From positions 1 to 37,261 of the forward strand of contig CAMVJE010000013.1 in assembly GCA_947167745.1 (NCBI GenBank): a DNA stretch of 37,261 nt, given 5' to 3'. Below the pieces are notes generated by a model. That model did no database searches. It had not been told where the DNA came from and saw only the letters and a list, made by a program, of their open reading frames with translations. The translations under genes and the position numbers were made by a program. Position 1 is the stretch's first letter. Each line of letters opens with the position of its first letter. Below, piece by piece: positions 1,447 through 37,053 of this stretch. The stretch is from an uncultured Treponema sp. (GTDB lineage: Bacteria; Spirochaetota; Spirochaetia; Treponematales; Treponemataceae).

Positions 1447-1455
1447 ATTAATCTC

Positions 1456-4017: not shown

Positions 4018-4031
4018 CTCTCAGCCCTTCA

Positions 4032-6218
4032 TTACATTGTCTGAACTAATTCTTTATAAGCACCGCCAGAGGCAATCAACTCATCATGTGTACCGCGCTC
4101 AATGATGGCTCCATGATCCAAAACGATGATTTCATCGCAATCCCTGATTGTAGAAAGACGATGGGCGATGATTATACTGGTACAACCACGGCGGCGGATA
4201 TTTTTGTCTACAGTCTGCTCGGTGATTGCGTCCAAAGCGCTTGTCGCCTCGTCCATTATGATAATGCGAGGGTTCGTTGCGAGGGCGCGGGCAATTTCCA
4301 GTCGTTGCCGTTGTCCGCCACTGAAGTTTCTTCCTCCCTCCCCTACTTTTGAATAATATCCGTTCGGACGAGATGTAATGACATCATGAATACAAGCATC
4401 TTTTGCAGCCTGCATATAAACTTCCTCAGGGATGGTAGAATTCCACATGGTAATATTGTCTTTGACAGTCCCCTCAAAAAGAGAAATCGACTGGTTCACG
4501 ACTGCGACAGAAGATGAAAAAACCTTCTTTTCGATTTCCTGCATTGGCTTTTTGTCGAAGAGAATCTCTCCACTCCAAGGCTTATAGAGTCCGCTTACAA
4601 GCTTGCCGATTGTTGACTTTCCTGAGCCAGTCGCACCAACAAGGGCAATTCGCTTTCCCGGAGTAAATTCAATGCTCAAATCCGTGATAAGGGGAGCTGC
4701 CAAGGGTGAATATCCAAATGTAATGTTTTTGAGTGAGATATATCCTTCTAGTTTTGGAATCGGCTTGTACATCAGGCTCTCGGCTGCTTTTGCGTCAGAC
4801 TGAGGCTCTGAATCATCTTTAAAAATTTGGGGAATCGGATATTCCATTACATCATCGATTCGCTGCATATCAGCGTTTGCCGAAAGAAGGGATGATCCCA
4901 ATCCAAGGAAAGAATTGATTGGACCAGAAAAATGCGAGAGCAAGGTCTGGAATGCCATGAGCATACCAATCGTAAGATGACCGTCCATTACACGAAGGGC
5001 GCCGACCGTAAGAATCAAAATGCTTTGTATGGAAGAAATAAGCTGGGGAACGATGGAATTTCCAGTGTTGGTTTTAACAAGACGCTGTGTCTCTAGAAGA
5101 ACTTTTGCCTGCTGACCCGACCACTGCATAAAAAAGTCATTTTCAGAACCAGATGCTTTGAGAGACTCAATCATCTCGATTCCAGACATCGTAATGCCGC
5201 TCAGTTTTCCCTCCTCCATTTCGATTTTAAAAGATTTGTCCTTGATTCGGTCAGAATTAATCTTAAAAACAATGACAACAATGGATGTGAGCGTAACAGA
5301 AATTATCGTAAGCGGAATGTCATACATAAGCATGAGCACAAGAAAAAAAATCGTACTGAACAAATTGATGACGACTCCGATGAGCTGCCCAGAGACAAGG
5401 GAAGAAATAGAATCACAAGATGCGATACGATTACACAACTCACCAGGAAGACGCTGGACAAAAAACTGCATCGGCATCTTTAAAATATGGGCAATAAAGC
5501 GTGAGGCAGAAGAAAGGCTCAGCCGAACCTGAAAACGCATCAAAACTGCATTCTGGATTGCCTGTAAAACCGTACTGACGACACATGTAAGCACCATGAC
5601 AGCAATCAGAGGTTTTAAAAGATTCATTGAATTTTTTACAAGGATTTCATCAATGAAGAAGCGGGAAAAAGTCGGATATACAAAACCAGGTATAAAATAG
5701 AGGAAACTCAAGAATCCGAGGAATGTAAAGATTGAGCCAAGTCCGCCCAGCCGTTTTTTGAGACGATGCCAAACCCGTGGTTTTACGCCGCCTTTATTAA
5801 AGTCTGGGCCTTTGCCGAATGTAAGCACAACTCCAGTAAAAGACTCGTCGAATTCATCCATGGACACTCGCCGCCGACCAGAAGCAGGATCATTCAGAAC
5901 GGCATTTTTACCTTTAAAGCCCTCCAGAACAACGAAGTGATTGAAATTCCAGAAAATAATGCATGGTTCTTTGAGGAGACGAAGTGCGTCAACTTCCATT
6001 TTGAAGCCTTTTGCTTCAAGTCCGTATTTTCGCGCCGCCTTGAGAATATTCGTTGCTTTCGTACCATCACGGGAAACACCGCAGTCAACTCGCAGGACTT
6101 CGAGCGATATATATTTCTGATAATAACCAAGAATCATCGCAAGGGAAGCCGCGCCGCATTCAAGAGCTTCCATCTGCAAGACGGTAGGGGTTTTCTTGAC
6201 TCTGCCAAATCCAAACAT
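4032..6218 (-). CDS. NHLM-type peptide export ABC transporter with C39 leader peptidase (ABC1-like)
   Basis: A 728-residue peptidase-containing ABC transporter. The N-terminal C39 domain (about 8-140) keeps the catalytic set: Gln15 and Cys21 in LQMEALECGAASLAMILGYY, His94 in FNHFVVLEG and Asp110 in LNDPASGRR. It should cleave a double-glycine-type leader during export. A six-helix transmembrane region (about 160-440) follows, then the ATPase domain with Walker A GATGSGKST near 527, signature FSGGQRQR near 629 and Walker B IIIMDEATSALD near 650. Its ATG shares one base with the stop of the HlyD-like gene (TAATG), implying translational coupling. The intact peptidase residues argue for an active system that needs a leader-bearing substrate. 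Confidence 0.93.
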   Translation of the reverse strand: MFGFGRVKKTPTVLQMEALECGAASLAMILGYYQKYISLEVLRVDCGVSRDGTKATNILKAARKYGLEAKGFKMEVDALRLLKEPCIIFWNFNHFVVLEGFKGKNAVLNDPASGRRRVSMDEFDESFTGVVLTFGKGPDFNKGGVKPRVWHRLKKRLGGLGSIFTFLGFLSFLYFIPGFVYPTFSRFFIDEILVKNSMNLLKPLIAVMVLTCVVSTVLQAIQNAVLMRFQVRLSLSSASRFIAHILKMPMQFFVQRLPGELCNRIASCDSISSLVSGQLIGVVINLFSTIFFLVLMLMYDIPLTIISVTLTSIVVIVFKINSDRIKDKSFKIEMEEGKLSGITMSGIEMIESLKASGSENDFFMQWSGQQAKVLLETQRLVKTNTGNSIVPQLISSIQSILILTVGALRVMDGHLTIGMLMAFQTLLSHFSGPINSFLGLGSSLLSANADMQRIDDVMEYPIPQIFKDDSEPQSDAKAAESLMYKPIPKLEGYISLKNITFGYSPLAAPLITDLSIEFTPGKRIALVGATGSGKSTIGKLVSGLYKPWSGEILFDKKPMQEIEKKVFSSSVAVVNQSISLFEGTVKDNITMWNSTIPEEVYMQAAKDACIHDVITSRPNGYYSKVGEGGRNFSGGQRQRLEIARALATNPRIIIMDEATSALDAITEQTVDKNIRRRGCTSIIIAHRLSTIRDCDEIIVLDHGAIIERGTHDELIASGGAYKELVQTM

Positions 6219-7336
6219 TATTTGTTTCCTTTTTGAGCCGTCTGAGCGACCGGCTCATCGCCAATGCCAAGCAATTTCTTTTTTATGGTAGGAATTATAA
6301 GAGAAATTGGACGGCGGCTGTCAGTAGTGACTTTTGCGGCACACAAATAGCCTGAGCCGATTTTTTGAGCTGGTCCCTTGGAAGAAGACCATTTGTATCC
6401 GGAATATGTGGAAGGATCAGGGATAATGCTTACTTTAACTTCGATTGGATTTGAAATCTGATGAAAAGTTGAGGCAAGGCTCGTGTTCTGAAGGCTTGAT
6501 ACAAGATAGTTGTCACTCACCGGGAATTCCGAAACATCGGTGATAAGCCCTTGCATATATCCGTATTCCTCTTGCTTTACCGTCGTGGGAACAAGTCCGA
6601 TTTTCATGCCAGGACGGATTTTCTTTCCGTCTGCTGCAGAAAAATACACGAGCGCGCCGATTGCATTCTCTCCGGAACCAGATTCAATTACCGCGATTGT
6701 GCTTCCCGCCTGTACGAAATCACCTCGGCGAACGGGAATTTCCATGACACGGCCAGTTGCCGTAGCCACCACCTGAGTCGCCGTCTGATAATTTTCATTC
6801 AAAAGGTAAATTTGCTGTTTTGTCTCGGTTATCTGCTGCTCCACATTCATCTCGGTCTGCCGGGAATTCAAATATTCATTCTCAGTGATTAGCCCCTGAT
6901 CGTAGAGGGATTTCATCATCATCTGCTTTGAATTTCCGTTTTTATTGGCAGAACGAACGACCTCCTGCATACGAAGAAGACCATAAAGTTTTTTTTCATT
7001 TACCTTAATTTGATCCAGGATATCCTGCCTTTCAATTCGTGCGATTACCTGACCGTTTTTTACCTCATCTCCGTGATTTACGAAAATATTCTTTACCGCA
7101 CCCTGATTCGCATATTTTACACTCACAACATGGTCAATATTCACAAGAACTCCAGTTCCGTTCACCATATCAGGAACAGTACCAACAATTCCCCACACAA
7201 GAGCCGCAGCTATGATGATTGCAATTGAAATTAAAGCAAAAACGCTGGACGGCTTTACCACCGTCATTGTCTGATCAAGCTGATCAAGCGATGCTATTCT
7301 GTCCAAAGCGGATTTTCTGAAAATTGCGCGTTTCAT
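6218..7336 (-). CDS. HlyD-family adaptor of the NHLM-type peptide export system
   Basis: A 372-residue membrane-fusion protein linking the inner-membrane ABC exporter to the outer envelope. It has a short cytoplasmic segment (MKRAIFRKSALDRIASLDQL), one transmembrane helix around 32-54, biotinyl-lipoyl-like halves (KYANQGAVKNIFVNHGDEVKNGQVI and ATGRVMEIPVRRGDFVQAGS) and a coiled-coil hairpin between them. The start at 7336 is preferred because the RK..LDRIASLDQLDQ opening is typical of NHLM HlyD proteins; the frame stays open to 7456, but that part overlaps the iterons. No strong Shine-Dalgarno sequence is visible. It is the first gene of the export operon. The nearest plasmid iteron (7398-7415) lies only about 60 bases upstream, so initiator binding could affect its transcription. 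Confidence 0.88.
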   Translation of the reverse strand: MKRAIFRKSALDRIASLDQLDQTMTVVKPSSVFALISIAIIIAAALVWGIVGTVPDMVNGTGVLVNIDHVVSVKYANQGAVKNIFVNHGDEVKNGQVIARIERQDILDQIKVNEKKLYGLLRMQEVVRSANKNGNSKQMMMKSLYDQGLITENEYLNSRQTEMNVEQQITETKQQIYLLNENYQTATQVVATATGRVMEIPVRRGDFVQAGSTIAVIESGSGENAIGALVYFSAADGKKIRPGMKIGLVPTTVKQEEYGYMQGLITDVSEFPVSDNYLVSSLQNTSLASTFHQISNPIEVKVSIIPDPSTYSGYKWSSSKGPAQKIGSGYLCAAKVTTDSRRPISLIIPTIKKKLLGIGDEPVAQTAQKGNK

Positions 7337-7397: not shown

Positions 7398-8069
7398 GGT
7401 AACAAATTTTCAACGACACAGAAATATAAAAATTCGTCTACAAATTCATACAACATGGTAACAAATTCTCAACGGAAAGCAAAATTACCACTCGTTAGCC
7501 GGGAATTTTAAAACTACGGATTATCCTCTCCACTCCCCTAATCTTTTTATTGTAATACAAGGAAATATCTAGGTAACAAATTTTCAACGGCATGACGCAA
7601 AATCGGATTCTACCGAACGGTAGTAACAAATTTTCAACGATTTTTAGAGAATTGGTAACAGATTTTCAACGATTCAATGAAAAATCGTTTCTAACCAGCA
7701 TTTTCAAAAGACTGGTAACAAATTCTCAACGGAAAGAGATAGAAATTGTCATAAATTTTCAACAGAAATCAACAAAAAGAATAGAAGAAAAAGGAAAAAA
7801 GTAACGGAATCTCAACGATTCTGCACAAATTGATGTGGAAAAGTCTTATGAAAGTAACAGAAATCCAACGAATTAAAAAAATCATCTAATTCATTTCATA
7901 ATAAAGACTTAGTCAATATCAAAAAAATTCTGGGTAACAGAAATTCCACGCAATCGTCACAAATTCACAACTTCTTCTATATAAACAAATAGAATTCAAA
8001 TAGTCTTATAAATTTATGACAAATAGTAAGATAAGTTGAAAAGTGTAAAACCGTTGAATTCTTGTTACC
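7398..8069. repeat. Iteron array, probable plasmid-type replication origin
   Basis: An 18-bp motif with consensus GGTAACAAATTYTCAACG recurs through the 742-base gap between rep and the export operon. Good copies start at 7398, 7457, 7572, 7622, 7654, 7714, 7800, 7853 and 7933. Degenerate copies start at 7747 (TGTCATAAATTTTCAACA) and 7954 (TCGTCACAAATTCACAAC). One copy is inverted at 8052-8069, nine bases after the rep stop. Start-to-start distances vary (21 to 115 bases), unlike CRISPR or simple tandem repeats. Direct repeats beside a RepA-type gene are typical iterons, the binding sites for the initiator. Here they lie 3' of rep. Confidence 0.9.
7871..8051. other. AT-rich segments of the probable origin (candidate unwinding region)
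   Basis: Two strongly AT-rich tracts, 7871-7932 and 7972-8051, flank the last direct iterons and lie next to the inverted iteron. This fits the usual origin design of iterons beside an easily melted segment. I see no clear consensus DnaA box (TTATCCACA), so assignment as the unwinding element is positional. Confidence 0.4.
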
Positions 8070-8078
8070 CTACCCTTT

Positions 8079-9047
8079 TTAAAGATTAGATGTTACCAGA
8101 ACATAATGCTTGTCGTTGGGGAGAATTACAGGCTTGCTTTTTGCCAGCGTGATTCCCGAATTGTCCTGAGCGACGCTTACATTAAGGTCAGGATAATACT
8201 TCTTTTTGATTAAATTTATCTGCTCCTTAATGGTGTTCCAGTTGACCCTTTCCTCCGACTCATAGCTTTTTTCCTTGACGGGCAAAAACTGATTGACTAG
8301 AGATTCCCTGGAAATGAAAATCGGCTCGGTGATGCTGTTGTTTCGGTAAACGAACCATGCGTACAAGTCCTTTCCTACGACGCTGGAGATTTCCTTGTAA
8401 ACGCCGTAGTCGATGGGAACCGAGTGGGCCTTTGAGAGCTTGGTGAATTTGTCCGAAAGCACGATAGTAAGACCTATGCTCTTTTTTTCCTTGCCGTTCT
8501 CGTCAATGTCCACATAGCTCATTGACTCGAAGAAAGGCACGATTCCGCTGGAATTCCAGGTTGCCGTGACCTCTGTTCCAAGGTTCTCGTCCTCGCTGAA
8601 AAATTCCTTGAAGAGATATTTCTGGGTTTTCTGCACCTTTTTTTCCCGGAATACGAATGAGGCGCCTGAGAAGCACTCAAGCTGCTCCTTGATTTCCTTG
8701 CCCCTCTGTTTTGGAAGCTGCAGCTCGTCCAAAAGCTGCTGCAGAGAGGTGTACTGCAAAACCACTGGATTTTCCGGGTTTGCGTCTTTGTCCAAAACGG
8801 CGTGGGTGGTCATAATCGTAAGGAGAAGACGGCCGTTCTTTCCGTAGGGGACTTTTATGTCGCTGGTGAGCTTGAAGTTGATGTTGTTGTATTTTCTCTC
8901 AAAGACATTTTTCTTGACATCTTTGAGGGGAAGAGCCGCCGCGATGAAGGGACTGGCTATGTAGCTTCGGAATTTTTTAACTATTTCCTTGCGTGTCTCT
9001 TCTTCGGGGAAAAGCTCCTGCAAATATTTGTTCTCTTCGTCCGTCAT
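8079..9047 (-). CDS. Plasmid replication initiator, RepA type (PF04796-like)
   Basis: A 322-residue protein resembling plasmid-encoded RepA initiators: an N-terminal acidic segment, then PYGKNGRLLLTIMTTHAVLD, which matches the typical P-G-x-x-R-LLL...T-x-AV pattern of that family, then a winged-helix-like region (YTSLQQLLDELQLPKQRGKEIKEQL). It should bind the adjacent iterons to start replication. The ATG at 9047 is chosen because an AAGGAAAG ribosome site lies just before it and the parB-like stop is one base upstream (TGATATG); the open frame upstream to 9140 only overlaps parB. It is the third gene of the parA-parB-rep operon. The family call rests on motif resemblance, not on a search. 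Confidence 0.82.
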   Translation of the reverse strand: MTDEENKYLQELFPEEETRKEIVKKFRSYIASPFIAAALPLKDVKKNVFERKYNNINFKLTSDIKVPYGKNGRLLLTIMTTHAVLDKDANPENPVVLQYTSLQQLLDELQLPKQRGKEIKEQLECFSGASFVFREKKVQKTQKYLFKEFFSEDENLGTEVTATWNSSGIVPFFESMSYVDIDENGKEKKSIGLTIVLSDKFTKLSKAHSVPIDYGVYKEISSVVGKDLYAWFVYRNNSITEPIFISRESLVNQFLPVKEKSYESEERVNWNTIKEQINLIKKKYYPDLNVSVAQDNSGITLAKSKPVILPNDKHYVLVTSNL

Positions 9048-9048
9048 A

Positions 9049-9537
9049 TCAGCTTTCCTTGCGTTTGTATGAGTGGGCGCTGAGGGAGACCTTGCCGTTT
9101 TCCAGGTCTTCCTTGAAGTAGTCCATTGCGCACATGACAAAGTGATTCATAGACACATTTTGCATGGCACAGAAGGCCTTGAAAACGCTGCGCTCCCCTT
9201 TTGACATGGAGACGAGGAATTTTTCCTTCACTTCCCTTCTCGCCGGTGTTTTTGCCTGAAGAGGAGTTTCTGGGCTTGTTTCTGCAAGATTGCTGCCGTT
9301 GGAAATTTGTGACTTTTCCTCTGAAATGGCGGCTGAATTTGACTTTGGAAGGGTATTTTCACCAGATTCCGCCCTTGCGCCTGCTGAAAGCCCTCCTCGT
9401 GCCTCTGGAGAGGAATTTTCGCCTGTCTGGCGGACTGAGCCTTGCGACGAACCCTGCGAAAAATTACTGTTGATTGCCGCTTCCAGGGGATTTACTTTTT
9501 TTGTGGCGCTTGCGGTGAAATTTGCGGGAGCTTTCAT
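9049..9537 (-). CDS. ParB/ParG-like partition partner with ribbon-helix-helix C-terminus
   Basis: A 162-residue protein. Residues 1-105 are low-complexity, rich in Ser, Ala, Glu and Asn, and probably disordered. The C-terminal 50 residues (KEKFLVSMSKGERSVFKAF, then NVSMNHFVMCAMDYFKEDLE) read as the strand-helix-helix pattern of ribbon-helix-helix DNA-binding proteins. Its ATG overlaps the parA stop (ATGA, 4 bases), so the two are translationally coupled. The position after a short ParA suggests a centromere-binding partner like ParG, which binds its own promoter region and stimulates the ATPase. The role is inferred from context and the C-terminal pattern; the sequence itself is not closely recognised. 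Confidence 0.68.
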   Translation of the reverse strand: MKAPANFTASATKKVNPLEAAINSNFSQGSSQGSVRQTGENSSPEARGGLSAGARAESGENTLPKSNSAAISEEKSQISNGSNLAETSPETPLQAKTPARREVKEKFLVSMSKGERSVFKAFCAMQNVSMNHFVMCAMDYFKEDLENGKVSLSAHSYKRKES

Positions 9538-10286
9538 TTTGTCATCTCCTTGATGATTGCGCCGATGGCGTCGGTGGTTTCTTTTCGGGCGGTGATTGAT
9601 TTGTCAGAAATCGCGTTCTTCAGGATTTGAGCCTTGACGAAAGAAGTGTCCGTGGGAATGGTGAAGAACTGGGTGTCGTCGAAATTCTTCATGAAGTTCT
9701 CGGCGAAGAGAGACTGGAATTTCATTCGTTTGTCCTGCTGGTTGAGGATTACGAAGGAGATTTTCTCCAGCAAGTCCTTGCAGCGGATTTCCTTTGTGGT
9801 GGTGATTAGGTTCTCGATGAGAGTCTGAAATCCGTCGGCGGAGAACTGGTCAAGCTTGAGGACAGGAACGATGGTGTCGGCGCAGTTTGCAATTCCTTTT
9901 TCAAAATCACCGAAAGCCGGAGATGTATCAAAAATAAGATAGTCGAAATCTTTGAGGGCGGGAAAAACCGAGTCCTCAAAGGCATAGTAATTTCGCGTGC
10001 TGGAAGCGAAAGCCTGCAAGCCTCCGTTGATTGCGAATGTGGGCAGGAGGAAGAGGTTGTCGAAGTGAGTCTGGACGAGACAGTTTTCTACGGTGACTTT
10101 GCCGGTGAGGACATCGGAAAGCTCGTACTGAAAATCCTTTGCCAGCCAGGAAGAAGAATTCCCCTGGGGGTCGCAGTCGACCAGAACGGTCTTGAAGCCT
10201 TTGCGGGCAAGCTCGATTGCGCAGGTGACGGAAACGCTGGTTTTGCCAGTGCCGCCCTTGCGGTTTAAAAAGACGAATGATTTCAT
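9534..10286 (-). CDS. parA: ParA-family partition ATPase
   Basis: A 250-residue P-loop ATPase with the deviant Walker A motif KGGTGKTS (signature Lys10) directly at the N-terminus, plus VDCDPQGNSSSW and the YLIFDTSPAFGD motif. It has no N-terminal DNA-binding domain, so it resembles small type Ib plasmid ParA proteins rather than the long type Ia ones. It would segregate the replicon together with the overlapping downstream gene product. The start at 10286 is set by a strong ribosome site (AGAGGGGAT) and by the conserved motif beginning at once; the upstream open frame to 10409 lies in AT-rich non-coding DNA. It is the first gene of the par-rep operon. Confidence 0.93.
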   Translation of the reverse strand: MKSFVFLNRKGGTGKTSVSVTCAIELARKGFKTVLVDCDPQGNSSSWLAKDFQYELSDVLTGKVTVENCLVQTHFDNLFLLPTFAINGGLQAFASSTRNYYAFEDSVFPALKDFDYLIFDTSPAFGDFEKGIANCADTIVPVLKLDQFSADGFQTLIENLITTTKEIRCKDLLEKISFVILNQQDKRMKFQSLFAENFMKNFDDTQFFTIPTDTSFVKAQILKNAISDKSITARKETTDAIGAIIKEMTK

Positions 10287-10299
10287 GAAATCCCCTCTG

Positions 10300-10470
10300 T
10301 TCACGAAATGTGAAAAAATCTGAAAAAGTATATATTTATATTTATATAGTATTTTAGATATAAAATCAACTATGAAAATATCAAAAAATATGTGTAAAAA
10401 TATATGCAAAACGCTAGTTAAAAAGATATAGATATATAAAAAGATATATATTTATATAAATATAGCATAA
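10300..10470. promoter_or_regulatory. AT-rich parA upstream region with short repeats, candidate centromere/operator
   Basis: Immediately upstream of the parA ribosome site is the inverted repeat TTCAC-GAAAT-GTGAA (10300-10314). Beyond it lie very AT-rich blocks with repeated TATATTTATAT-like units (10329-10348, 10444-10462) and a repeated AAAAAGATATA (10420-10430, 10439-10449). ParG-type proteins bind short repeats in this position to repress parA and act as the centromere. No exact parS can be named. Confidence 0.4.
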
Positions 10471-10554
10471 ATATTGAATTTAAGGGCTGTCTAAATTTTT
10501 ATTTGATAAAGTTCATGCCTGATGTCGGAAAGGCTGATTTTGGCAAAAAATTCC

Positions 10555-10693: not shown

Positions 10694-10885
10694 ATGGAAA
10701 ACAAAACTGAACGAACATTGTATAAAATCCGCTATGTGGGCGAGGCCTGTGATTTTTTTGAGCGGGATAAAATTTACCTTTGTGTCGGTGAGGTCGTTGA
10801 CGGTCCTCAGAAGGGCTCTCTTTTTGTAATTAACGAGCAGGGCGTGGACTATCTTTACGACGCAAATTCTTTTGAGAGGGTTTAA
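10694..10885 (+). CDS. Small hypothetical protein (63 residues)
   Basis: A short protein beginning MENKTERTLYKIRYVGEACD with no signal peptide or membrane segment. Its pattern (YKIRYVGE, then DKIYLCVGEVVDGPQKGSLFVINEQGVDYLYD) suggests a small beta-barrel or SH3-like fold similar to short proteins found in phage and gut-bacterial genomes, but I cannot name a family. No clear Shine-Dalgarno sequence is present; a GATAAT/GCCGATAA box lies about 10 bases before the ATG, so the mRNA may be leaderless. Function unknown. If the sigma-28-like promoter is real, expression would follow the flagellar/chemotaxis programme. Confidence 0.65.
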   Translation: MENKTERTLYKIRYVGEACDFFERDKIYLCVGEVVDGPQKGSLFVINEQGVDYLYDANSFERV

Positions 10886-10927: not shown

Positions 10928-11395
10928 ATGACTGATTTTTTGAATTTGATTCTTTCTCATTTGCCCTGGTTTTGGGTTGCAATTATGGTAATCGCCCTTG
11001 TCTTTGAGGCGATAACTTTTTCTCTTACCACGGTCTGGGCGGCGGTTTCGGCTCTTTTAATGATTTTCCTCTGTCGCACTGCTCTTCCTTTCCGCTGGCA
11101 GCTTTTGATTTTCTTTGCTATTACGATTCTTCTTATGGTTTTTACGAGACCCTTTGCAGTCAAAAAACTCAAGCTGGGGCGTGTCACGACAAACGTAAAT
11201 TCTATGGACGGTCAGGAAGTTCTTGTCGTAAAGAAAATTACCCGCTTTGATAAAGGAGAAGTCCGGGCTTCAAACGGAGTTACATGGACGGCCATGTGTG
11301 CGGATGGAGCAGGGGAGGGTGAAATTCCTAAAGGCTCTGTCTGTCTGGTGGAGAGGGTTGAGGGTAACACCTTAATTGTAAAAACTAAGATTTAG
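10928..11395 (+). CDS. NfeD-family membrane protein
   Basis: A 155-residue protein with two or three transmembrane segments in the first ~80 residues (WFWVAIMVIALVFEAITF; LLIFFAITILLMVF) and a C-terminal OB-fold of the NfeD type (NSMDGQEVLVVKKI through GSVCLVERVEGNTLIVKTK). Short NfeD proteins usually pair with an SPFH/stomatin protein in membrane microdomain or quality-control roles. An SPFH gene follows two genes later on the same strand, supporting this. The next gene starts three bases after the stop. The molecular function of the family remains unclear. Confidence 0.87.
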   Translation: MTDFLNLILSHLPWFWVAIMVIALVFEAITFSLTTVWAAVSALLMIFLCRTALPFRWQLLIFFAITILLMVFTRPFAVKKLKLGRVTTNVNSMDGQEVLVVKKITRFDKGEVRASNGVTWTAMCADGAGEGEIPKGSVCLVERVEGNTLIVKTKI

Positions 11396-12122: not shown

Positions 12123-13013
12123 ATGATGATTCCCGTTTTGGTTGTCGTTCTTTTTGTATTTTTTGTAATCATTGTAGCCAATGTTCGTGTTGTGCCCCAG
12201 TCACGGGCCTGCATTATTGAGCGTTTGGGTGCGTATTACACAACATGGCAGGTCGGCTTTCATGTTAAGCTGCCTTTTATCGACCGGATTGCCAATTCTA
12301 TGTCACTCAAAGAAAAGGTCATGGATTTTCCGCCTCAGCCGGTCATCACAAAAGATAATGTTACGATTCAAATTGATACGGTAGTCTACTGTCAGGTTAC
12401 AGATCCAAAACTTTACACTTACGGAGTAGAAAGCCCTAATTTTGCTCTTGAAAATCTTACTTCAACGACAATTCGAAACATCATTGGTGAACTTGAACTG
12501 GACGAAACGCTTACCAGCCGCGATGTAATCAATACAAAAATGCGCAGTATTCTTGATGAGGCAACAGATCCCTGGGGAATTAAAGTCACCCGAGTTGAAG
12601 TTAAAAATATCGATCCGCCTAAAGCAATCCAGGAAGCGATGGAAAAGCAGATGCGGGCTGAACGGGAACGCCGTGAGCAGATTTTGATTGCCGAAGGTCA
12701 TAAGCAGAGCGCAATTCTTGAGGCCGAGGGTAAAAAGCAGGCTACGATTCTTGAAGCAGAAGCTCAGAAAGAAGCTGCCGTACAAAAGGCAAAGGGAGAG
12801 GCTGAGGCAATTCTTGAGGTTCAGAAAGCAACTGCTCAGGGTATTCAAATGATAAAAGAAGCTGGAGCTGACGAGTCAGTCATAAAACTCCGAAGTCTTG
12901 AGGCATTTGAGGCTGCAAGCAAAGGAGCGGCTAATAAAATCATAATTCCGTCAGACATTCAGAACATGGCGGGATTTTTGACCAGTGTGAAAGAATTGGT
13001 AAAAGGAAACTAA
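12123..13013 (+). CDS. SPFH/band 7 (stomatin, QmcA-like) membrane protein
   Basis: A 296-residue protein with an N-terminal membrane anchor (about 3-22), an SPFH domain (VRVVPQSRACIIERLGAYY... VTIQIDTVVYCQVTDPKLYTYGV; RNIIGELELDETLTSRDVIN) and an Ala/Glu-rich coiled coil (about 165-240, repeated AILEAEGKKQATILEAEAQK units). This architecture is that of stomatin-like microdomain scaffolds such as QmcA, which act with NfeD proteins. NfeD lies two genes upstream. Translation may begin at the first or second of two tandem ATGs; the second has better spacing from AAGGAG. The only odd feature is the tiny membrane gene immediately downstream. Confidence 0.93.
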   Translation: MMIPVLVVVLFVFFVIIVANVRVVPQSRACIIERLGAYYTTWQVGFHVKLPFIDRIANSMSLKEKVMDFPPQPVITKDNVTIQIDTVVYCQVTDPKLYTYGVESPNFALENLTSTTIRNIIGELELDETLTSRDVINTKMRSILDEATDPWGIKVTRVEVKNIDPPKAIQEAMEKQMRAERERREQILIAEGHKQSAILEAEGKKQATILEAEAQKEAAVQKAKGEAEAILEVQKATAQGIQMIKEAGADESVIKLRSLEAFEAASKGAANKIIIPSDIQNMAGFLTSVKELVKGN

Positions 13014-26811: not shown

Positions 26812-29800
26812 ATGATAGAACATAAAAGAGATTCTTTTGACATTTCCGATTCTTCTCTAAAAATTCTTTCTTCCGGCTTAAATGAAGAGCAGCTTTCTGC
26901 GGTCAAAAAAACAGGCAATGTGGTCGTTTCGGCAGGAGCGGGCAGCGGTAAAACTACGGTTCTGGCCAGCCGCTATGCCTATCTAATTGAAGCAAAAAAT
27001 ATTCCCTGTGACAGGATTCTGACCCTTACTTTTACAAAAAAAGCCGCCAATGAGATGAAGGAAAGAATCTTTAAGGGCTTGCGTTTTCATCTTCAGGGGA
27101 AGGATGTCAAAGGCAAAAAGAATTTGCCCCCTGATTTCGAGCATCTTGGCCAGATTAAGGCAAGGGCGCAGTCTGCAATCGAATCATTTGATAAAAGCCA
27201 TATTCAGACTCTGGATAGTTACTTTTCTGAAATTGCCAAAAAAGGCGCCCGTTATTATGGCATTAATCCGAATTTCACCCTTGATGACGATAAAATCAAT
27301 TCAGTCGTTAATTTTAAGGCGACAAAGTATGTCCTTGAGCATCTTGATGACCAGGAAATAAAAGAAATCGCCCAGATTTTTCAGATTCAGAATCTTGCGA
27401 GTGAGCTTTTTGCCCATTCCATTCTAAAATTTTCTACGGTTCTCACGCCAATTGATTTTGAAAAAAGCCTTGCCGCCCAAAAAGAGCAGATTCTAAAGGA
27501 TTATGAGAAAATCACGGCTCTAATCGAAGACGAAATCGCTTCATTCCTTTTACTGCCAAAAAGTTCTAAGCCTAGTGCAACGCTTCAAAAATTGTATGGA
27601 TACATAGAAGAATTTGGGAATCCAGAAGCGCCTTCCCTGCCACAGGAAGTTTTTGAGAGTGAAAAAATAGCAAAGTCCTTCCTTCAAGAAAATTTTTTCA
27701 CTTATTGCAGGAGTGTTTCCGGCTATTGCGGAAGCGTTTTTTCTCGTGGCCCGGACGATTACAAAATATTTAAAAAAAATCTTCTCTCTCTCCTTGAAAA
27801 ACTTTATCTTATTGCAAATTCAATTTCTGGCTTTGATCTGCAAAAAAAAGTCTTCGCCCATCTGGCTTCTTTTCAGGAAGATGTGAACAGAACAAAGCGC
27901 ACTGCTGGCGTTCTTTCTTTTTCTGATGTGAGCCAGCTTGCTCTTTCCAGCCTTTCTGACCATGACGAAATCCGCCATATCGAACAGCAGAAATTCGATG
28001 CCATAATGATTGACGAATTTCAGGATGACAACAGCCTTCAGTGCGATGTGCTTTTGATTCTTTCCGACGCTCATGAAAAATACGATGAAGCAGGCAGATA
28101 TGTTCTGCCCCGCCTTTCTGATTCAGATTTGAGCCAAAGGCTGGACAGTCACAAGCTTTTCTTTGTCGGCGATGACAAGCAGAGCATTTACCGCTTCCGT
28201 GGTGCCGATGTTTCAGTATTTAGAAGTCTTTCTGCCTCAATTCCGTCTTTAATCCAACTTAAAACCAATTACCGCTCCGATCCGGAACTTATCCGTTCCT
28301 TTAACAGTTTTTTTGGCGGCTACGATTATCCAAGTGGAGAAGAAGTAAACGATTCCCTGCCGGCCATTTTTATGACGAACGAAAAATTTCCGCCTCGACC
28401 TGACGGAAGCGAGCAGATTCCGGATTATGAAGCTGACTACAAGCGGGTAGAAGTTCCATCCTTTAAGCTTGAAAAATGTGATTTCTCACAGAAAAAAGTT
28501 ACGGTCGCCCTTTATCCGGCAAAAGTTGATGAAAGTTCTATAAATCCATCTTCAGATGAAGAGAGCGAGGCTGAGCGGAAAATTTACGAATGTGAGGCGA
28601 GTTTCGTTGCGAGGGAAATTAAAAAACTGCTGGAAGAAAAAGACGAAAAGGGCAGTCCAAAATATCATCGAAGAGACATTGCCCTTCTGTTCCGCACGGC
28701 CACGCCCACCGCGCCCTACGAAAATATCCTTCTTGCGGCGGGAATTCCTTATTCCACCGAGGTTTACAAGGGATTTTTCTCAGACGGTCCAATCAACGAC
28801 ATCATCGCCCTGCTCAAACTTTGCGTTTACCCCGAAGACAAAAATGCCTACGCAAAACTTCTCCGTTCGCCTTTCTGCTCACTCACATTTGCCGAGCTAG
28901 AAAAAGTTTTGGTGAACACGGAAGAGCCTTACAAATCTCCCTTTGACGAGAAAATGCTTGGAGCTCTTGCAGAAGATGGGGAATTGAATCAAAAAATCCT
29001 CAGTCTTAAGTCTATTTATGATGACATTAATTCACGGCTCAAGACCGAAAAACTCACAAAAACTATTTCCTATATCTGGTATGAGCTTGGCTACCGCTAC
29101 GAAACCCTTTGGAACAAAAGCGTCTCCATGTACGCTTCTTTCTATGACATTCTCTTTGAGATGGCGCGGCTTGCCGAGGACAAAACGGAGAGTCTGGCTT
29201 CTTTTATCGACATGGTAAAATCTTACGAAGAATCTGACAGAAAACTTGACGGCCTTGATGTGGTAATGGATGCCGAAGACGCAGTTCAGATACTCACGAT
29301 TCATAAAAGCAAGGGACTGGAATTTAAAGTCGTTTTCGTTTGCGGCGTTTCTGCTCGTAGCCGTGGAGGAATGGATTCAATTGTCTGTGACAAAGATTTT
29401 GGATTTTTGCTTAAAACTCCCGTCTGGAAAGACTACGCCAGGGCTGCGGAAGAACTTCCTGCAAGTGGTGAAATCCGTAAAAATATTGCACAAAATTACT
29501 GCATGTCTTGGGTTCAAAAAGAAAATGAGAGGGAGGAAAGTGCCGAGTTGCGCCGTCTTGCCTATGTCGCCTTCACCCGCGCCGAAGAAAAGCTCTACAT
29601 TGTTGGAAGCGAGAATGGTGAATTTGAGGACGAAGAAAAATCCGCCGAAAAAGCCGTCCCGAAGACCATGTACCAGCTTTTGCTGCCCCTTTTGTATCAG
29701 TTCAACACTGAAAATGGAGTAAATCACCCGGCCTTCAATTTTGTAAATGACAGGGAATCTTTTGCCCCTATTTCAATCGAAAAAAGTGATAAAATCGAAA

Positions 29801-30765
29801 AGTCAGACTTTATCGCAAGCCTGCCGGATTCAGAAAAGTTCACCGTGGAGCAGGAAAAGCTCTCGCCGAAAGTTTATGTCTCACCGAGCAAACTGAAGAA
29901 ATTGGGTGGGGGAAGTCTCCCCCTCGCTCCAATACCACTCACTACGCGGAAAAGACCTGAGCAAGCTCGGTCACTTCCTCTCCGTTCGGGTATTTCCGCT
30001 ACCCCCCCTGCCAACGGTGATTATTCTTTGATTAATTTGATTGTTGCCAGCACTGTGCCGGCTTGGAACGGAGAACTTTCCCTGGAAGATGAAGGTGAGG
30101 AAGACGACAGGCATCAGTCTGAGCAGGAAAATCCACAAGAACTTCTTTCAGCCTCTCCTCTCTTTAACTTTACAAATTTCGGTACGATTGCTCATGCCTA
30201 CATGGAAGGCAAAGTGCTTTCTAAGGAAGCGGTTATCAGTGGCCGGGAATGGATTGGCATGAACGAGAGCTTTATTCCCAAAGTCGGTATGGAAAAATGG
30301 CCGGGCGAGACAAACCGCGAGAAAAAAATTGCAAAAATCCGCGAACTTTGTGCCGATATGGCTGACAAATTTGAAAATTCCTCTATATATAAAGAGGCCT
30401 CTGCCGCCAGCTGGAAAAAAACTGAATATTCTTTCAGGAGTCTTGTCGATAAATCTTTTCTTGAAAACGGCGATTCCAGCAAAGGGGAGGACTCAATCGA
30501 AGGCGAAAATTACGCTGAAGACTTGATTGTCACCGGTCAGATTGACCTAGTTTATAAAAATGACGCTGACTCAAAATACAAATACACGATTGTTGACTAC
30601 AAGACCAATCAGAAAATAGAGCCGGAACTTTATTACAGCCAGCTCGCCTGCTACCGTAAAGCTATAAGTCAGATGTTGGGAGCAGGCGAGGGCGAAATCC
30701 GTTGCGTTTTGTATTATTTGCGCTTCGCAGCGGAAGTTGATGTGACGGAGCATTGTCGGGGATGA
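26812..30765 (+). CDS. addA: AddA/RecB-type helicase-nuclease subunit
   Basis: A 1317-residue UvrD-like helicase with a RecB-family nuclease end. Helicase motifs: Q-motif LNEEQLSAV, Walker A AGAGSGKTT (41-49), TFTKKAANEM, Walker B IMIDEFQDD (near 400), GDDKQSIYRFRGAD (near 453), ILTIHKSKGLEFKVVFV and YVAFTRAEEKLYIVG. The C-terminus has the nuclease motif IVDYKTNQ near 1260 and the later YYSQLACY. It should process double-strand breaks for recombination. No AddB partner gene is in the window. There is no clear ribosome site and the gene follows the phosphodiesterase by 18 bases. Between helicase and nuclease a Pro/Arg-rich stretch is encoded by repeat-like DNA. AddA versus RecB naming is not certain. 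Confidence 0.88.
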   Translation: MIEHKRDSFDISDSSLKILSSGLNEEQLSAVKKTGNVVVSAGAGSGKTTVLASRYAYLIEAKNIPCDRILTLTFTKKAANEMKERIFKGLRFHLQGKDVKGKKNLPPDFEHLGQIKARAQSAIESFDKSHIQTLDSYFSEIAKKGARYYGINPNFTLDDDKINSVVNFKATKYVLEHLDDQEIKEIAQIFQIQNLASELFAHSILKFSTVLTPIDFEKSLAAQKEQILKDYEKITALIEDEIASFLLLPKSSKPSATLQKLYGYIEEFGNPEAPSLPQEVFESEKIAKSFLQENFFTYCRSVSGYCGSVFSRGPDDYKIFKKNLLSLLEKLYLIANSISGFDLQKKVFAHLASFQEDVNRTKRTAGVLSFSDVSQLALSSLSDHDEIRHIEQQKFDAIMIDEFQDDNSLQCDVLLILSDAHEKYDEAGRYVLPRLSDSDLSQRLDSHKLFFVGDDKQSIYRFRGADVSVFRSLSASIPSLIQLKTNYRSDPELIRSFNSFFGGYDYPSGEEVNDSLPAIFMTNEKFPPRPDGSEQIPDYEADYKRVEVPSFKLEKCDFSQKKVTVALYPAKVDESSINPSSDEESEAERKIYECEASFVAREIKKLLEEKDEKGSPKYHRRDIALLFRTATPTAPYENILLAAGIPYSTEVYKGFFSDGPINDIIALLKLCVYPEDKNAYAKLLRSPFCSLTFAELEKVLVNTEEPYKSPFDEKMLGALAEDGELNQKILSLKSIYDDINSRLKTEKLTKTISYIWYELGYRYETLWNKSVSMYASFYDILFEMARLAEDKTESLASFIDMVKSYEESDRKLDGLDVVMDAEDAVQILTIHKSKGLEFKVVFVCGVSARSRGGMDSIVCDKDFGFLLKTPVWKDYARAAEELPASGEIRKNIAQNYCMSWVQKENEREESAELRRLAYVAFTRAEEKLYIVGSENGEFEDEEKSAEKAVPKTMYQLLLPLLYQFNTENGVNHPAFNFVNDRESFAPISIEKSDKIEKSDFIASLPDSEKFTVEQEKLSPKVYVSPSKLKKLGGGSLPLAPIPLTTRKRPEQARSLPLRSGISATPPANGDYSLINLIVASTVPAWNGELSLEDEGEEDDRHQSEQENPQELLSASPLFNFTNFGTIAHAYMEGKVLSKEAVISGREWIGMNESFIPKVGMEKWPGETNREKKIAKIRELCADMADKFENSSIYKEASAASWKKTEYSFRSLVDKSFLENGDSSKGEDSIEGENYAEDLIVTGQIDLVYKNDADSKYKYTIVDYKTNQKIEPELYYSQLACYRKAISQMLGAGEGEIRCVLYYLRFAAEVDVTEHCRG
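29904..30008. repeat. Repeat-like palindromic insertion inside the helicase-nuclease gene
   Basis: A GC-rich block of about 105 bases begins with a perfect hairpin GGGGGA-AGTC-TCCCCC (29908-29923), contains GCGGAAA (29946-29952) mirrored by TTTCCGC (29993-29999) and ends in a C-run. It is read in frame as GGGSLPLAPIPLTTRKRPEQ and ARSLPLRSGISATPPANG, unlike the flanking acidic sequence. It looks like an in-frame palindromic element placed in a linker. Confidence 0.55.
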
Positions 30766-31999: not shown

Positions 32000-32100
32000 C
32001 ATCAGCACTCTTTGCGGAATAGTAGACTCGAACTACTGACCCCCACGATGTCAACGTGATGCTCTAACCAACTGAGCTAACCCCGCAGACAGTGCTGATG
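32000..32100 (-). terminator. Leader/trailer stem around tRNA-Val, ending in a terminator U-run
   Basis: The minus-strand transcript reads CATCAGCACT (32100-32091), four bases, the tRNA, three bases, AGTGCTGATG (32009-32000), then seven T. The 10-bp arms are perfectly complementary, so the precursor can form a helix stacked on the acceptor stem and directly followed by a U-tract, serving as an intrinsic terminator. Confidence 0.75.
32013..32086 (-). tRNA. tRNA-Val (anticodon GAC)
   Basis: A 74-base cloverleaf on the minus strand. The acceptor stem is GCGGGGT/ATTCCGC with two G-U pairs, the D-arm is TAGCTCAGTTGGTTAGAGC, the anticodon arm TCACG-TTGACAT-CGTGG gives anticodon GAC, and the T-arm contains GTTCGAGTC. 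The discriminator is A and CCA is not encoded. It decodes GUC (and GUU) valine codons. Confidence 0.95.
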
Positions 32101-34145: not shown

Positions 34146-35163
34146 GATTAAATTTGCTTTGCTTGGCATCTGCGTTCTCGCGCTTCTGTCGTCATGCAAC
34201 AAAAAAAAGGAGTCTCAGGTCGCCGAGAAGCAGCCCGAGGTAGAAAAAGCTGTTTCAGCTACGATTTCATTGGGTTTTTCTACGAATCTTGAAGACCCGC
34301 GGGGAGTTGCTTCTATTCTTTTTAAAGAAGAAGTCGAAAAAAATTCCAACGGAAGAATCAAAATTGATATTCATCCCAACGGAGAACTAGGCGGTGACGG
34401 TGCATTAATCGAAGGTGTCATCAACGGTAAAGTCGATATGACCGTATCGAGCGCAGGGAATTTTGCCGTTTATGCCACAAAACTGGGGATTTCTGCCATG
34501 CCCTTCCTCTTTTCAGATTTTGACGAAGCATGGGCTTTTATGGACGGAGACTTGGTTGCCGAAGTAAACAAAACTCTTGAGGAATTCGGAATCATCGTTC
34601 TCTCTCATTTTGATAACGGTTTCCGCTGTGTCACTACGACTAACCGGCCTGTAAAATCTGTCGCTGACATGAAGGGCTTGAACATTCGCACTCCGCCAAA
34701 TCAAATCGTAATGGAAACAATGTCTGCCCTGGGAGCTACTCCAAAGCCTTACGCATTCAACGAACTTAAAAAAGCTCTGAGAGATGGACTTTTTGATTCT
34801 CAGGAAAATCCGATTCCAGTCATTTACAATTCAAAACTCTATGAGGAGCAGAAATATCTTGCGATCACAAATCACAGTTATGATGCAATGCCTCTCGTTA
34901 TTCGTAAAGACTTGTGGGATATATTCTCTGATTCAGACAAGGCTCTCATTCTTGCGGCTGCAAAAAAAGCCCAGGATTTGGACCGAAAGCTTGTAAAAGA
35001 GCAGACTGATTCCTATGTTTCTAAACTTAAGGAAGCCGGCATGACAATCACTACGCCAGATTTAAAAGCCTTTCAGAGCGCAACGAGCGGAGTCATGAAT
35101 GTATTTACCAATGTTTATGGCGAGGAACTTTTAAAGAAACTTGCTGAAAAGACAGCGAAATAA
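34138..35163 (+). CDS. Orphan TRAP-type solute-binding lipoprotein (DctP family)
   Basis: A 341-residue protein with a lipoprotein signal (MSKIKFALLGICVLALLSSC). The DctP family features are clear: FKEEVEKNSNGRIKIDIHPNGELG, VDMTVSSAGNFA, the binding-site region IRTPPNQIVMETMSALGATP and LRDGLFDSQENP. It should bind a carboxylate or similar anion in the periplasm. No dctQ or dctM membrane genes are present. The start at 34138 has GGGGAG upstream and overlaps the cyclase gene by eight bases; a start at 34120 would lack the clean signal peptide. The overlap suggests it presents its ligand to the dCache cyclase instead of, or as well as, a remote permease. Confidence 0.9.
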   Translation: MSKIKFALLGICVLALLSSCNKKKESQVAEKQPEVEKAVSATISLGFSTNLEDPRGVASILFKEEVEKNSNGRIKIDIHPNGELGGDGALIEGVINGKVDMTVSSAGNFAVYATKLGISAMPFLFSDFDEAWAFMDGDLVAEVNKTLEEFGIIVLSHFDNGFRCVTTTNRPVKSVADMKGLNIRTPPNQIVMETMSALGATPKPYAFNELKKALRDGLFDSQENPIPVIYNSKLYEEQKYLAITNHSYDAMPLVIRKDLWDIFSDSDKALILAAAKKAQDLDRKLVKEQTDSYVSKLKEAGMTITTPDLKAFQSATSGVMNVFTNVYGEELLKKLAEKTAK

Positions 35164-36359
35164 TGCCAGATTCTGATTTTCAAAAAGATGATATTGCTTT
35201 CATGCGCCGGGCCATTGAGCTTGCAAAAGGCGGTGAGGGCAAAACAAATCCAAATCCTCTCGTGGGTGCGGTCATCGTAAAAGACGGCCGCATTATCGGA
35301 GAGGGATTTCATCATGCCTATGGCGAATTGCACGCAGAGAGGGATGCCCTCAAAAATTGCACCGAGCGGGGCGAAAATCCTCAGGGGGCAACGATTTTTG
35401 TGACTTTGGAGCCATGCTGTCATTTTGGAAAACAGCCGCCCTGTACCCAGGCTATTATTGAAAGCGGAATCAGCCGTGTCGTCGTGGGAAGCCGAGATCC
35501 GAATCCCCTTGTTCACGGAAAAGGAAATGCCTCTCTTCGCGAGCATGGTATCTCTGTCGAAGAAGATTTTTTACGGGATGAGTGCGATTCCCTGAATCCG
35601 ATTTTTTTTCATTACATAAGCAGAAAAACACCCTTCGTTGCCTTAAAATATGCCATGACCCTTGATGGAAAAATCGCCACCAAGACCGGCGAATCAAAAT
35701 GGATTACAAACGAAGATTCCAGGAATTATGTTCATGTACTCCGTAATCGTTATGCGGGAATTCTCGCCGGAATCGGAACTGTCCTTGCCGATGACCCCAT
35801 GTTGAATTGCAGGCTTACAAACGAAAAAGGCGAGGCCGTGGGCAGAAATCCAGTGCGCATTATCTGTGACAGCGACTTAAAAATCCCCCTTCTGAGTAAA
35901 ATCGTAAAAACAGCAGGGGAGATTCCGACTATTATCGTTTCATGCAAAGATGGCCGTAGCGAAGACGAAGAAAAAATTTATGTTGAAAAAAAGGCTGTGC
36001 TTGAAATGGCAGGGCTAGAGGTAGTGGAAATTCCAGGCATAAAGCCTTCAAAAGAGTCTTTCAAAAGAAGAAAAAGGTCAAAGCCTCAGGTTGATTTATC
36101 TGTGCTTATGAAAATTTTAGGCGAAAAGGGAATCGACAGTCTGCTCATTGAAGGCGGTTCGGAGATTCATTACAGTGCCTTAAAATCAGGAATCGTGAAT
36201 AAAATCCATGCTTTTGTCGCTCCGAAATTTTTTGGCGGGGCAGGAAAGTCTCCTGTGGGCGGCGAGGGCGTGAAACTTCCGAGCGAGGCATTTAACTTCC
36301 AACTTGAAAAAATATCAAGATTCGGCGATGATGTCTTGCTAGAATACAAAAAAATATGA
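35163..36359 (+). CDS. ribD: Riboflavin biosynthesis bifunctional deaminase/reductase
   Basis: A 398-residue protein carrying out the second and third steps of riboflavin synthesis from GTP. The N-terminal deaminase has the zinc ligands and catalytic Glu: HAE (57-59) and PCCHFGKQPPC (Cys85, Cys94). The C-terminal reductase has KYAMTLDGKIAT, GIGTVLADDPMLNCRL, IEGGSEIHYSAL and FVAPKFFGG. A Lys/Arg-rich insert (ESFKRRKRSKPQ, near 300) is longer than usual. Its ATG shares one base with the stop of the TRAP-type gene (TAATG). No FMN riboswitch lies upstream, so expression depends on the cyclase/TRAP promoter or an internal one. Confidence 0.96.
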   Translation: MPDSDFQKDDIAFMRRAIELAKGGEGKTNPNPLVGAVIVKDGRIIGEGFHHAYGELHAERDALKNCTERGENPQGATIFVTLEPCCHFGKQPPCTQAIIESGISRVVVGSRDPNPLVHGKGNASLREHGISVEEDFLRDECDSLNPIFFHYISRKTPFVALKYAMTLDGKIATKTGESKWITNEDSRNYVHVLRNRYAGILAGIGTVLADDPMLNCRLTNEKGEAVGRNPVRIICDSDLKIPLLSKIVKTAGEIPTIIVSCKDGRSEDEEKIYVEKKAVLEMAGLEVVEIPGIKPSKESFKRRKRSKPQVDLSVLMKILGEKGIDSLLIEGGSEIHYSALKSGIVNKIHAFVAPKFFGGAGKSPVGGEGVKLPSEAFNFQLEKISRFGDDVLLEYKKI

Positions 36360-36390
36360 ATTATGCATTAAGCATTATGAATTGAGGCTT

Positions 36391-37053
36391 ATGTTTACTG
36401 GAATAATCGAAGAAATCGGAAAGGTCAAAAAAATCTCTTTGGGCGGTGCGTCCGGATCCCTTGAAATCAGTGCAAAAAAAGTCCTTGAAGAAACAAAAAT
36501 CGGCGACTCAATCGCAGTGAACGGAGTCTGTCTCACAGTTACAGGTATGACTTCCTCTTCATTTACGGCTGATGTGATGGCAGAAACAGTGCGGCGCTCT
36601 TCACTCGGCTCGCTTGTTTCTGGAAGCGGAGTCAATCTTGAGCGGGCAATGGCTGCCAACGGACGCTTCGGCGGCCACATCGTAAGCGGTCATATTGACG
36701 GCACCGGCACTCTTTCCCGTCTTCAAAAAGAAGAAAATGCTGTTTGGGTTTACATCAAAACAAGTGCGGAGATTCTTCGTCTCATAGTTGAAAAAGGCTC
36801 CATCGCAATCGACGGAATCAGTCTTACGGTAGCAGGTGTGAATGACAGTGAATTTGCGGTGAGCGTAATTCCCCACACGGCAGAAGAAACTACACTTCTT
36901 ACAAAAAAAGCAGGCGACCTTGTGAATCTCGAAAATGACATAATCGGAAAATATGTAGAAAAGTTGCTGGCTTCAAAGGCTCCTGCTCAAAGTGGTGAAG
37001 AGAGCCGGAAAGAGAAGGATGATAGATTCTTAAAATGGCTTGCAAGTGAGTAA
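36391..37053 (+). CDS. ribE: Riboflavin synthase, alpha subunit
   Basis: A 220-residue protein with the two tandem lumazine-binding barrels. The first begins MFTGIIEEIGKV and ends near GRFGGHIVSGHIDGTG; the second contains SIAIDGISLTVAG and FAVSVIPHTAEETTL. It dismutates two 6,7-dimethyl-8-ribityllumazine molecules into riboflavin. The ATG at 36391 gives the conserved MFTGII start and has GAGG upstream, so the frame's earlier ATG at 36382 is rejected. A short charged tail (SGEESRKEKDDRFLKWLASE) extends past the usual end. ribB/A and ribH are not in the window. Confidence 0.96.
   Translation: MFTGIIEEIGKVKKISLGGASGSLEISAKKVLEETKIGDSIAVNGVCLTVTGMTSSSFTADVMAETVRRSSLGSLVSGSGVNLERAMAANGRFGGHIVSGHIDGTGTLSRLQKEENAVWVYIKTSAEILRLIVEKGSIAIDGISLTVAGVNDSEFAVSVIPHTAEETTLLTKKAGDLVNLENDIIGKYVEKLLASKAPAQSGEESRKEKDDRFLKWLASE

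Follow-up and report, generated by a model that had tools for sequence, protein, structure and literature searches.

In-gene iterons on a probable chromid of Treponema with a plasmid-type replication origin

Introduction

In Vibrio cholerae, sites for the initiator RctB that lie outside ori2 inhibit the replication of chromosome II, most likely via titration (PMC3937223; review PMC6090056; articles are cited by PMC number, and statements taken from them refer to the portions of text that were available). Here, we analyze a stretch of 37,261 nucleotides from an uncultured Treponema sp. (assembly GCA_947167745.1, contig CAMVJE010000013.1, hereafter the window), in which a parA-parB-rep module adjoins a cluster of iterons and which probably belongs, judging from its genes and composition, to a chromid, i.e., a plasmid-derived second chromosome, of a mostly ruminant-gut Treponema clade. 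Single copies of the same iteron were found in relatives inside genes for the synthesis of vitamin B12 and riboflavin. The explanation that we consider best, and hold to be rather likely, is that this chromid has an origin formed by the initiator Rep and its iterons and that the in-gene sites titrate or handcuff Rep.

Among the spirochetes, Leptospira, a separate lineage, likewise has a second replicon, which carries essential genes and measures 278 kb in L. biflexa (PMC2229662). In the rumen species Treponema saccharophilum, a core function (the sole ribosomal RNA operon) is also carried by a rep plasmid, which differs in its size of 8.4 kb and its Rep_3-family initiator (PMC10645730). The Spirochaetota figure among the phyla rich in extra replicons in a text whose available part does not mention Treponema (PMC13342612), and no Treponema chromid is described in the available parts of PMC10645730, PMC12236494, and PMC3156407. 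Within the accessible portions of the open PMC literature, we found no report of a chromid or second chromosome in Treponema, nor of in-gene iterons beyond V. cholerae.

The replication and partition module

Three consecutive genes on the minus strand, parA, a parB-like gene, and rep, are followed by the iterons (Table 1), as the original prediction had proposed. A scan of the window for the iteron RGTMACARATTYTCAACG allowing up to three mismatches found 13 sites versus 0.39 expected, a number reached in none of 100 shuffles. The overlapping start and stop codons of the prediction hold for parA/parB (ATGA) but not for parB/rep, which are separated by one base (TGA-T-ATG). Likewise, of the nine good, two degenerate, and one inverted iteron copies predicted, only the inverted one stands; the direct copies are six exact (starting at 7398, 7457, 7572, 7622, 7654, and 7714) and five degenerate (7747, 7800, 7853, 7933, and 7955), and a lone copy inside parB had been missed.

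The cluster of direct copies is the presumed replication origin, and direct repeats beside rep are what characterizes iteron replicons with a RepA/RctB-type initiator. A similar cluster adjoins rep in seven related contigs, the inverted copy is also found in G021, G130, G001, and G065, and the lone copy is present in nine of nine clade parB genes tested, that of the window included. More broadly, iterons are located 3' of rep in every rep type that we looked at (pTRESU01, pTB1, G002, G083, G134, G209, and G129). G129 and G002 have other iterons, and there, too, one copy is located in the open reading frame (ORF) between parA and rep. A copy in this interval, with an iteron sequence that varies by rep type, seems to be among the older components of the module. 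On a contig of G134 (C41, L159, 8721-11978), whose Rep is 64-66% identical to that of the window, a second set of iterons is spread out several kb off rep. The cluster also contains a putative DnaA box, for which we take the consensus to be TTWTNCACA.

Rep is clearly a RepA-family replication initiator. Its match to Pfam PF04796 (RepA_C), the family anticipated in the original prediction, has an E value of 2e-4 and, at 22 bits, is below the curated cut-off of 26. However, among the 120 of 503 matches listed, PF04796 is assigned to many close homologues, and RepA is the name used wherever, in a few cases, the source gives one. The predicted fold, a double winged helix, resembles those of RctB, RepE, and Pi, with domains 2-3 of RctB, from Vibrio chromosome II, as the best structural match, so that homologues and fold agree with the role first assigned to the 8079-9047 product. 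Rep was found in 63 of the 200 genomes of the genus and is 89-99% identical in nine of them, which compares with 55-89% for the parB-like protein within the clade. The latter gave no Pfam match, and its ribbon-helix-helix C terminus was judged by eye only. A Treponema-type rep (47%) and parA also occur on a contig labelled as a Bacilli metagenome-assembled genome (L031), which is probably mis-binned.

A second replicon in the clade

The genomes compared are mostly draft metagenome assemblies, some of them entered under two handles. In several clade species, the module is flanked by the small gene at 10694, the nfeD-like gene, and the SPFH gene, a neighborhood common to rumen Treponema relatives (L025 differs in having nfeD and SPFH on the side of rep). 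Because many assemblies made independently share this arrangement, a misjoin at 7.4 or 10.6 kb is less likely. The minimum of the cumulative guanine-cytosine (GC) skew fell within rep in all eight clade contigs tested (the window, where it is at 8706, G021, G065 (= G214), G130, G223, G197, G123, and G001), out of ten known clade rep contigs, G097 C56 and G229 C135 being left out. Small reversals apart, the skew trend extends over ~95 kb of G021 C26 and over 76 kb of G065 C7. The contigs with dnaA have minima of their own, inside the gene in G065 C5 and ~4 kb from it in G021 C16. The genes rep and dnaA are on separate contigs in the seven clade genomes in which both were found, although draft assemblies would give the same result. 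We rejected a chromosome without DnaA, with rep as its sole origin, since dnaA was found in most genomes: 14 of 16 handles had Bac_DnaA_C, and 25 of 27 genomes had PF00308, which scored above the cut-off in 24, the misses being draft assemblies.

The right flank had been read as chromosomal, and core-type genes are indeed present there (tRNA-Val, ribD, ribE, and an addA-like gene). G021, G130, and G214 have ribD on the same contig as rep; elsewhere in the clade, it is on contigs unlinked to rep, and in G233, G071, and G081, which are closed or near-closed, it is on contig 1. The SPFH gene shares a contig with rep in six of nine clade genomes and is on contig 1 in six closed or near-closed relatives. 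The addA-like gene is on the G214 rep contig, and relatives have matches of only 34-42%, one of them on contig 2 (G077). A tRNA-Val copy at least 99% identical lies on rep- or site-bearing contigs in six of eight clade genomes, where the other matches are 77-78% identical. The GC fraction of the replicon versus samples of other contigs was 0.484 versus 0.451 in G021 and 0.431 versus 0.397 in G214, and the dinucleotide distance was ~22 versus 23-33 within the comparison samples (70-81 kb, of which only the dnaA contig is known to be chromosomal). Plasmid-type replication and maintenance genes, a chromosome-like composition, and core genes that are chromosomal elsewhere, three of the traits by which chromids are recognized, coincide on this replicon. 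Between the two options first considered for the window, an integrated plasmid or a chromid, the second is better supported by the shared neighborhood, the skew minimum in rep, the location of dnaA, and the composition.

Iterons inside vitamin genes

The in-gene iterons, like the initiator swap described below, go beyond the original prediction. A search of 200 whole genomes for the 18-mer with at most one mismatch gave 132 matches in 18 genomes, versus 14 for the reversed pattern. Of these, 109 are in 12 clade genomes (nine with window-type rep, plus G129, G023, and G024, counted by their chromid genes), 20 are in three genomes with a rep 66-70% identical, and three are singletons. The in-gene copies are nearly confined to the replicon. 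In the strictest case, G214, all 11 matches are on the rep contig, and in G001 and G021 they are on two contigs each. With up to two mismatches, 16 clade contigs contained 34 distal sites, against none for the reversed pattern (in this count, three contigs, G123 C136, G123 C92, and G197 C12, were covered only in part, and the per-gene tables used them whole). All 34 are in ORFs, a weak observation by itself because ORFs cover most of the DNA.

The genes that carry the site are the same across species. Besides parB, all the cbiD (8/8), FecE-CobQ fusion (8/8), and cbiH (7/7) genes have it, followed by cbiA (6/8), cobD (4/7), ribD (4/6), and cbiB (1/6), and eight genomes have four to six site-bearing B12 or riboflavin genes. 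There were no sites in cobT, cbiC, cbiF, cbiET, cbiG, cbiJ, cobU, ribE, ribH, or ribBA of the clade genomes examined (the names ribH, ribBA, and cbiK were assigned by eye). Other conserved families were at three or more mismatches, save single-genome cases and two ORFs that reach into the origin cluster; in the table of 66 families, each present in at least four of nine genomes, the site calls of the 421- and 521-residue families are such overruns. The six non-module families with at least four site-bearing members all belong to B12 or riboflavin synthesis, to which 15-18 of 63 families belong (post hoc P, 7e-5 to 3e-4).

The site in cbiH is conserved at the DNA level. Among 30 loci fetched of 44 matches, the ten clade genes have it with 0-2 mismatches, and the 20 other genes of the genus have 8-14 mismatches at the same codons, often with a similar peptide. 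In cbiD and cobQ, it is kept within linkers that are otherwise not alignable, and for these two an origin by insertion is possible. Sites occur in both orientations, at nucleotides 19 to 2545 of the vitamin genes and under three coding solutions (SQIFN, VTNFQR, and ALK..C). A protein motif or a mobile coding insert as sole cause was rejected on account of these three solutions and of the codon choice made in place in ribD, cbiH, cobD, and cbiB. A polarity signal of the FtsK/KOPS kind was likewise discarded, given that a single arm, that of G065 C7, has distal sites on either strand. Some sites are ~67 kb (G065 C7) or 78 kb (G021 C26) from the origin, and the distal copies favor GTCAC (22/34), the window origin copies GTAAC. 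Extra initiator-type sites outside the origin of the same replicon, as found here, are what is expected of datA-like or titration sites.

An initiator swap in G129

Contig C4 of G129 has the clade backbone (cobD, cbiA, cbiF, cbiD, cbiC, ribD, cbiH, cbiG, ribE, cbiET, cbiJ, addA, cobQ, and tRNA-Val) together with a rep of the pTRESU01 subfamily, 44-45% identical to the window Rep and 60-67% to the pTRESU01 group. This rep has iterons of its own (GGTAACANNNTTGATT), still adjoins the 10694 and nfeD-like genes, and coincides with the skew minimum. G129 is nested in the clade as the sister of G021, with support of 100/100 on cbiH (23 of the 30 loci) and 0.999 on concatenated chromid proteins (up to 18 proteins from 11 genomes, G024 and G229 left out). 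G021 has sites in cbiD, cobQ, cbiA, ribD, and cbiH, of which G129 keeps that of cbiH alone, so four of five are gone. Hence, in one draft genome, most in-gene sites are gone where the window-type initiator is gone.

On the two contigs scanned that have another rep type (G002 C4 and G129 C4), iterons with 0-1 mismatch were restricted to the vicinity of rep, the interval from rep to parA, and the stretch preceding parA, and distal sites as a general trait of such reps were not seen there. Away from the rep region, G129 C4 has 40 weak matches (2-3 mismatches) versus 23 of the reversed pattern.

Several clade genomes have a second rep (G214 C54, G197 C76, G223 C160, G097 C39, G229 C33, and G129 C33), 44-46% identical to the window Rep and 61-64% to the G129 C4 rep. 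These genes probably mark co-resident plasmids, and their type is a possible source of the module swapped into G129.

Proposed mechanism and alternatives

We propose that Rep would bind the iterons lying 3' of the rep gene, where it would start bidirectional replication, while dnaA would mark the separate origin of the main chromosome. Rep would also bind the single 18-bp sites in parB and, in relatives, in four to six B12 and riboflavin genes of the replicon. These sites might soak up Rep or pair with the origin iterons, by titration or handcuffing, and initiation would be held down, each round of replication doubling the Rep sinks across the replicon. Such restraint, which we infer, as we do the binding itself, from the sequences and from the analogy with V. 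cholerae, would be comparable to that of the extra-origin RctB sites on chromosome II. A wider claim seems to us evenly balanced: that a plasmid initiator turned chromosomal wrote its own site into B12 and riboflavin reading frames at tolerated codons, so that replication control, and perhaps vitamin output, is carried in coding sequence; that most sites went when the origin was replaced in one species; and that initiator identity shapes codon use far from the origin. If true, Treponema would gain a chromid, and the taming of a plasmid initiator into a chromosomal one would have an independent comparative test. Extra-origin sites were already known in V. cholerae; here, they occupy the same places in the same genes in about a dozen species-level genomes, with one natural origin swap in which most are missing.

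Several observations weigh against the titration or handcuffing proposal or the chromid itself. The evidence from the swap is one draft genome, and only its cbiD and cobQ losses are distinctive, because the window and G001 lack the ribD site as well, and G097 the cbiA site, all three of them keeping window-type rep; a cbiD without the site is found as well in G023, where no window-type rep was found. G129 retains the cbiH site and has clade-type 18-mers at 6115 of C20 (L220) and 92981 of C16 (L223), with 0 and 1 mismatch, and the stretches fetched of these two contigs have no chromid marker genes apart from one 35% match. Distal sites would be unneeded for this kind of origin, because none was seen at 0-1 mismatch on G002 C4 and G129 C4. 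Plain titration does not explain the enrichment in B12 and riboflavin genes, which may carry sites as the oldest residents of the replicon or because Rep also acts on their expression. ParB could bind the in-gene sites instead of Rep. The separate circle, too, is inferred, given that none of the clade assemblies is closed, and the size of the replicon, at least 117 kb on one rep contig (G065 C7), becomes 246 kb if a second G021 contig (C4) is counted that, like other site-bearing contigs, was assigned via shared genes and sites, not contig linkage. Finally, in G083, dnaA (46 kb) shares a single 2.9-Mb contig (C1) with a related rep/iteron module (1.368 Mb).

The in-gene sites could instead be transcriptional, Rep or a partner acting as a roadblock that damps the vitamin genes and makes the synthesis of vitamins depend on the copy number of the chromid or the level of Rep, which we regard as unlikely. 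The restriction of the six site-bearing families to B12 and riboflavin, the site in parB, inside the rep operon, and the finding of a single cobalamin riboswitch at gathering score in the 126 kb scanned are what such a role would lead one to expect. However, the positions and orientations are scattered, two sites may be found in one gene run while adjacent B12 genes have none, and in V. cholerae, the only transcription that RctB appears to regulate is that of its own gene (PMC11711613). It is more doubtful still that the dispersed sites are parS-like centromere sites of the parB-like protein. Sites of the parS kind are often intragenic, parB has a copy in every clade genome tested, and the GTCAC and GTAAC preferences suggest that the distal and origin sets could differ in their binder. 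On the other side are the distance of the sites from the origin, the stronger conservation of Rep than of the parB-like protein, and the constant position of the iterons 3' of rep.

An integrated module that gives the main chromosome two active origins is similarly improbable. The core-type genes around the module would fit it, as would the G083 contig, in which the region at ~1.1-1.46 Mb (L105-L111 and L199-L204) has a partly lower GC content and a skew minimum within 10 kb of rep, but with the G083 genome 81% complete, this region may be an assembly join rather than an integrated megaplasmid. The separation of rep and dnaA contigs and the confinement of the sites to few contigs also speak against integration. 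A recent event was rejected in view of the neighborhood common across species and the skew centered on rep, and there may have been an old one with a working origin. Lastly, chance or hitchhiking relics without function are very improbable, because losses in species that keep window-type rep (ribD, cbiA) and the absence of the cobD site in three genomes are outweighed by the lack of reversed-pattern matches on the same 16 contigs, the sites kept in unalignable linkers (cbiD, cobQ), and the cbiH contrast (10/10 versus 0/20).

Other features of the window

The A+T-rich stretch upstream of parA is probably a promoter/operator or a centromere. The gene at 10928 gave no NCBIfam match, and its name, nfeD, is our assumption. 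At 259-7336, adjoining the iterons, there is an NHLP bacteriocin-type export set, composed of HlyD and two ATP-binding cassette proteins and accompanied by a periplasmic binding protein. HlyD of this set is near rep in some relatives too. The chromid contig G001 C29 has a match to Rfam 5_ureB_sRNA (L102, 5855-6153, 87 bits), a family described in another phylum.

Table 1. Features of the module and its surroundings in the window
Feature	Position	Strand	Remarks
Iteron cluster: direct copies of RGTMACARATTYTCAACG (18 bp), 6 of them exact and 5 degenerate	7398..7972	+	3' of rep
DnaA-box-like TTTTCCACA, putative	7834..7842	-	Inside iteron cluster; TTWTNCACA, 0 mismatches
Inverted iteron copy, 3 mismatches	8052..8069	-	Just beyond rep stop codon
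rep	8079..9047	-	RepA-family replication initiator, 322 amino acids; predicted double winged helix
parB-like gene	9049..9537	-	162 amino acids; slot between parA and rep conserved in relatives
Lone iteron copy within parB, 1 mismatch	9297..9314	-	Shared by clade parB genes
parA	9534..10286	-	ParA/AAA_31 partition ATPase; Pfam AAA_31, E 9e-27
Very A+T-rich stretch with imperfect repeats	10300..10480		Upstream of parA
Small conserved gene	10694..10885	+	Right border marker of module; beside different rep/par module in G129 (86%)
nfeD-like gene (presumed name)	10928..11395	+	Conserved neighbor of module
SPFH/HflK-like gene	12123..13013	+	Rep contig in 6/9 clade genomes; contig 1 in 6 near-closed relatives
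AddA/RecB-like helicase gene	26812..30765	+	Also on G214 rep contig
tRNA-Val(GAC)	32012..32087	-	Copy at least 99% identical in 8/8 clade genomes searched
ribD	35163..36359	+	In-gene iteron in 4 relatives; window copy without one (best 5 mismatches)
ribE (lumazine-binding)	36382..37053	+	Core-type gene

Comparison with known systems

The plasmids pTRESU01 (NC_015386.1) and pTB1 (NZ_AP025287.1) have a rep 46-47% identical to that of the window, and pTRESU01 also has the order parA, small gene, rep, and 3' iterons. Unlike the window replicon, both have type IV secretion genes and different iterons, and there are no annotated B12 or riboflavin genes in the stretches covered (35.6 of 165.6 kb and 49.1 of 85.1 kb, respectively). 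On the partial plasmid records, a few iteron copies are within ~4 kb of rep.

Chromosome II of V. cholerae shares with the Treponema replicon a plasmid-type iteron origin on a secondary chromosome, the same initiator fold, and iterons elsewhere on the replicon (PMC3937223, PMC6090056, PMC11711613). However, it belongs to another phylum, RctB is 11% identical, and its five extra iterons and a 39-mer are within 74 kb. In the Treponema replicon, by contrast, the extra sites are in named vitamin genes, recur at matching positions from one species to the next, and, for one set, are mostly missing where the initiator was swapped.

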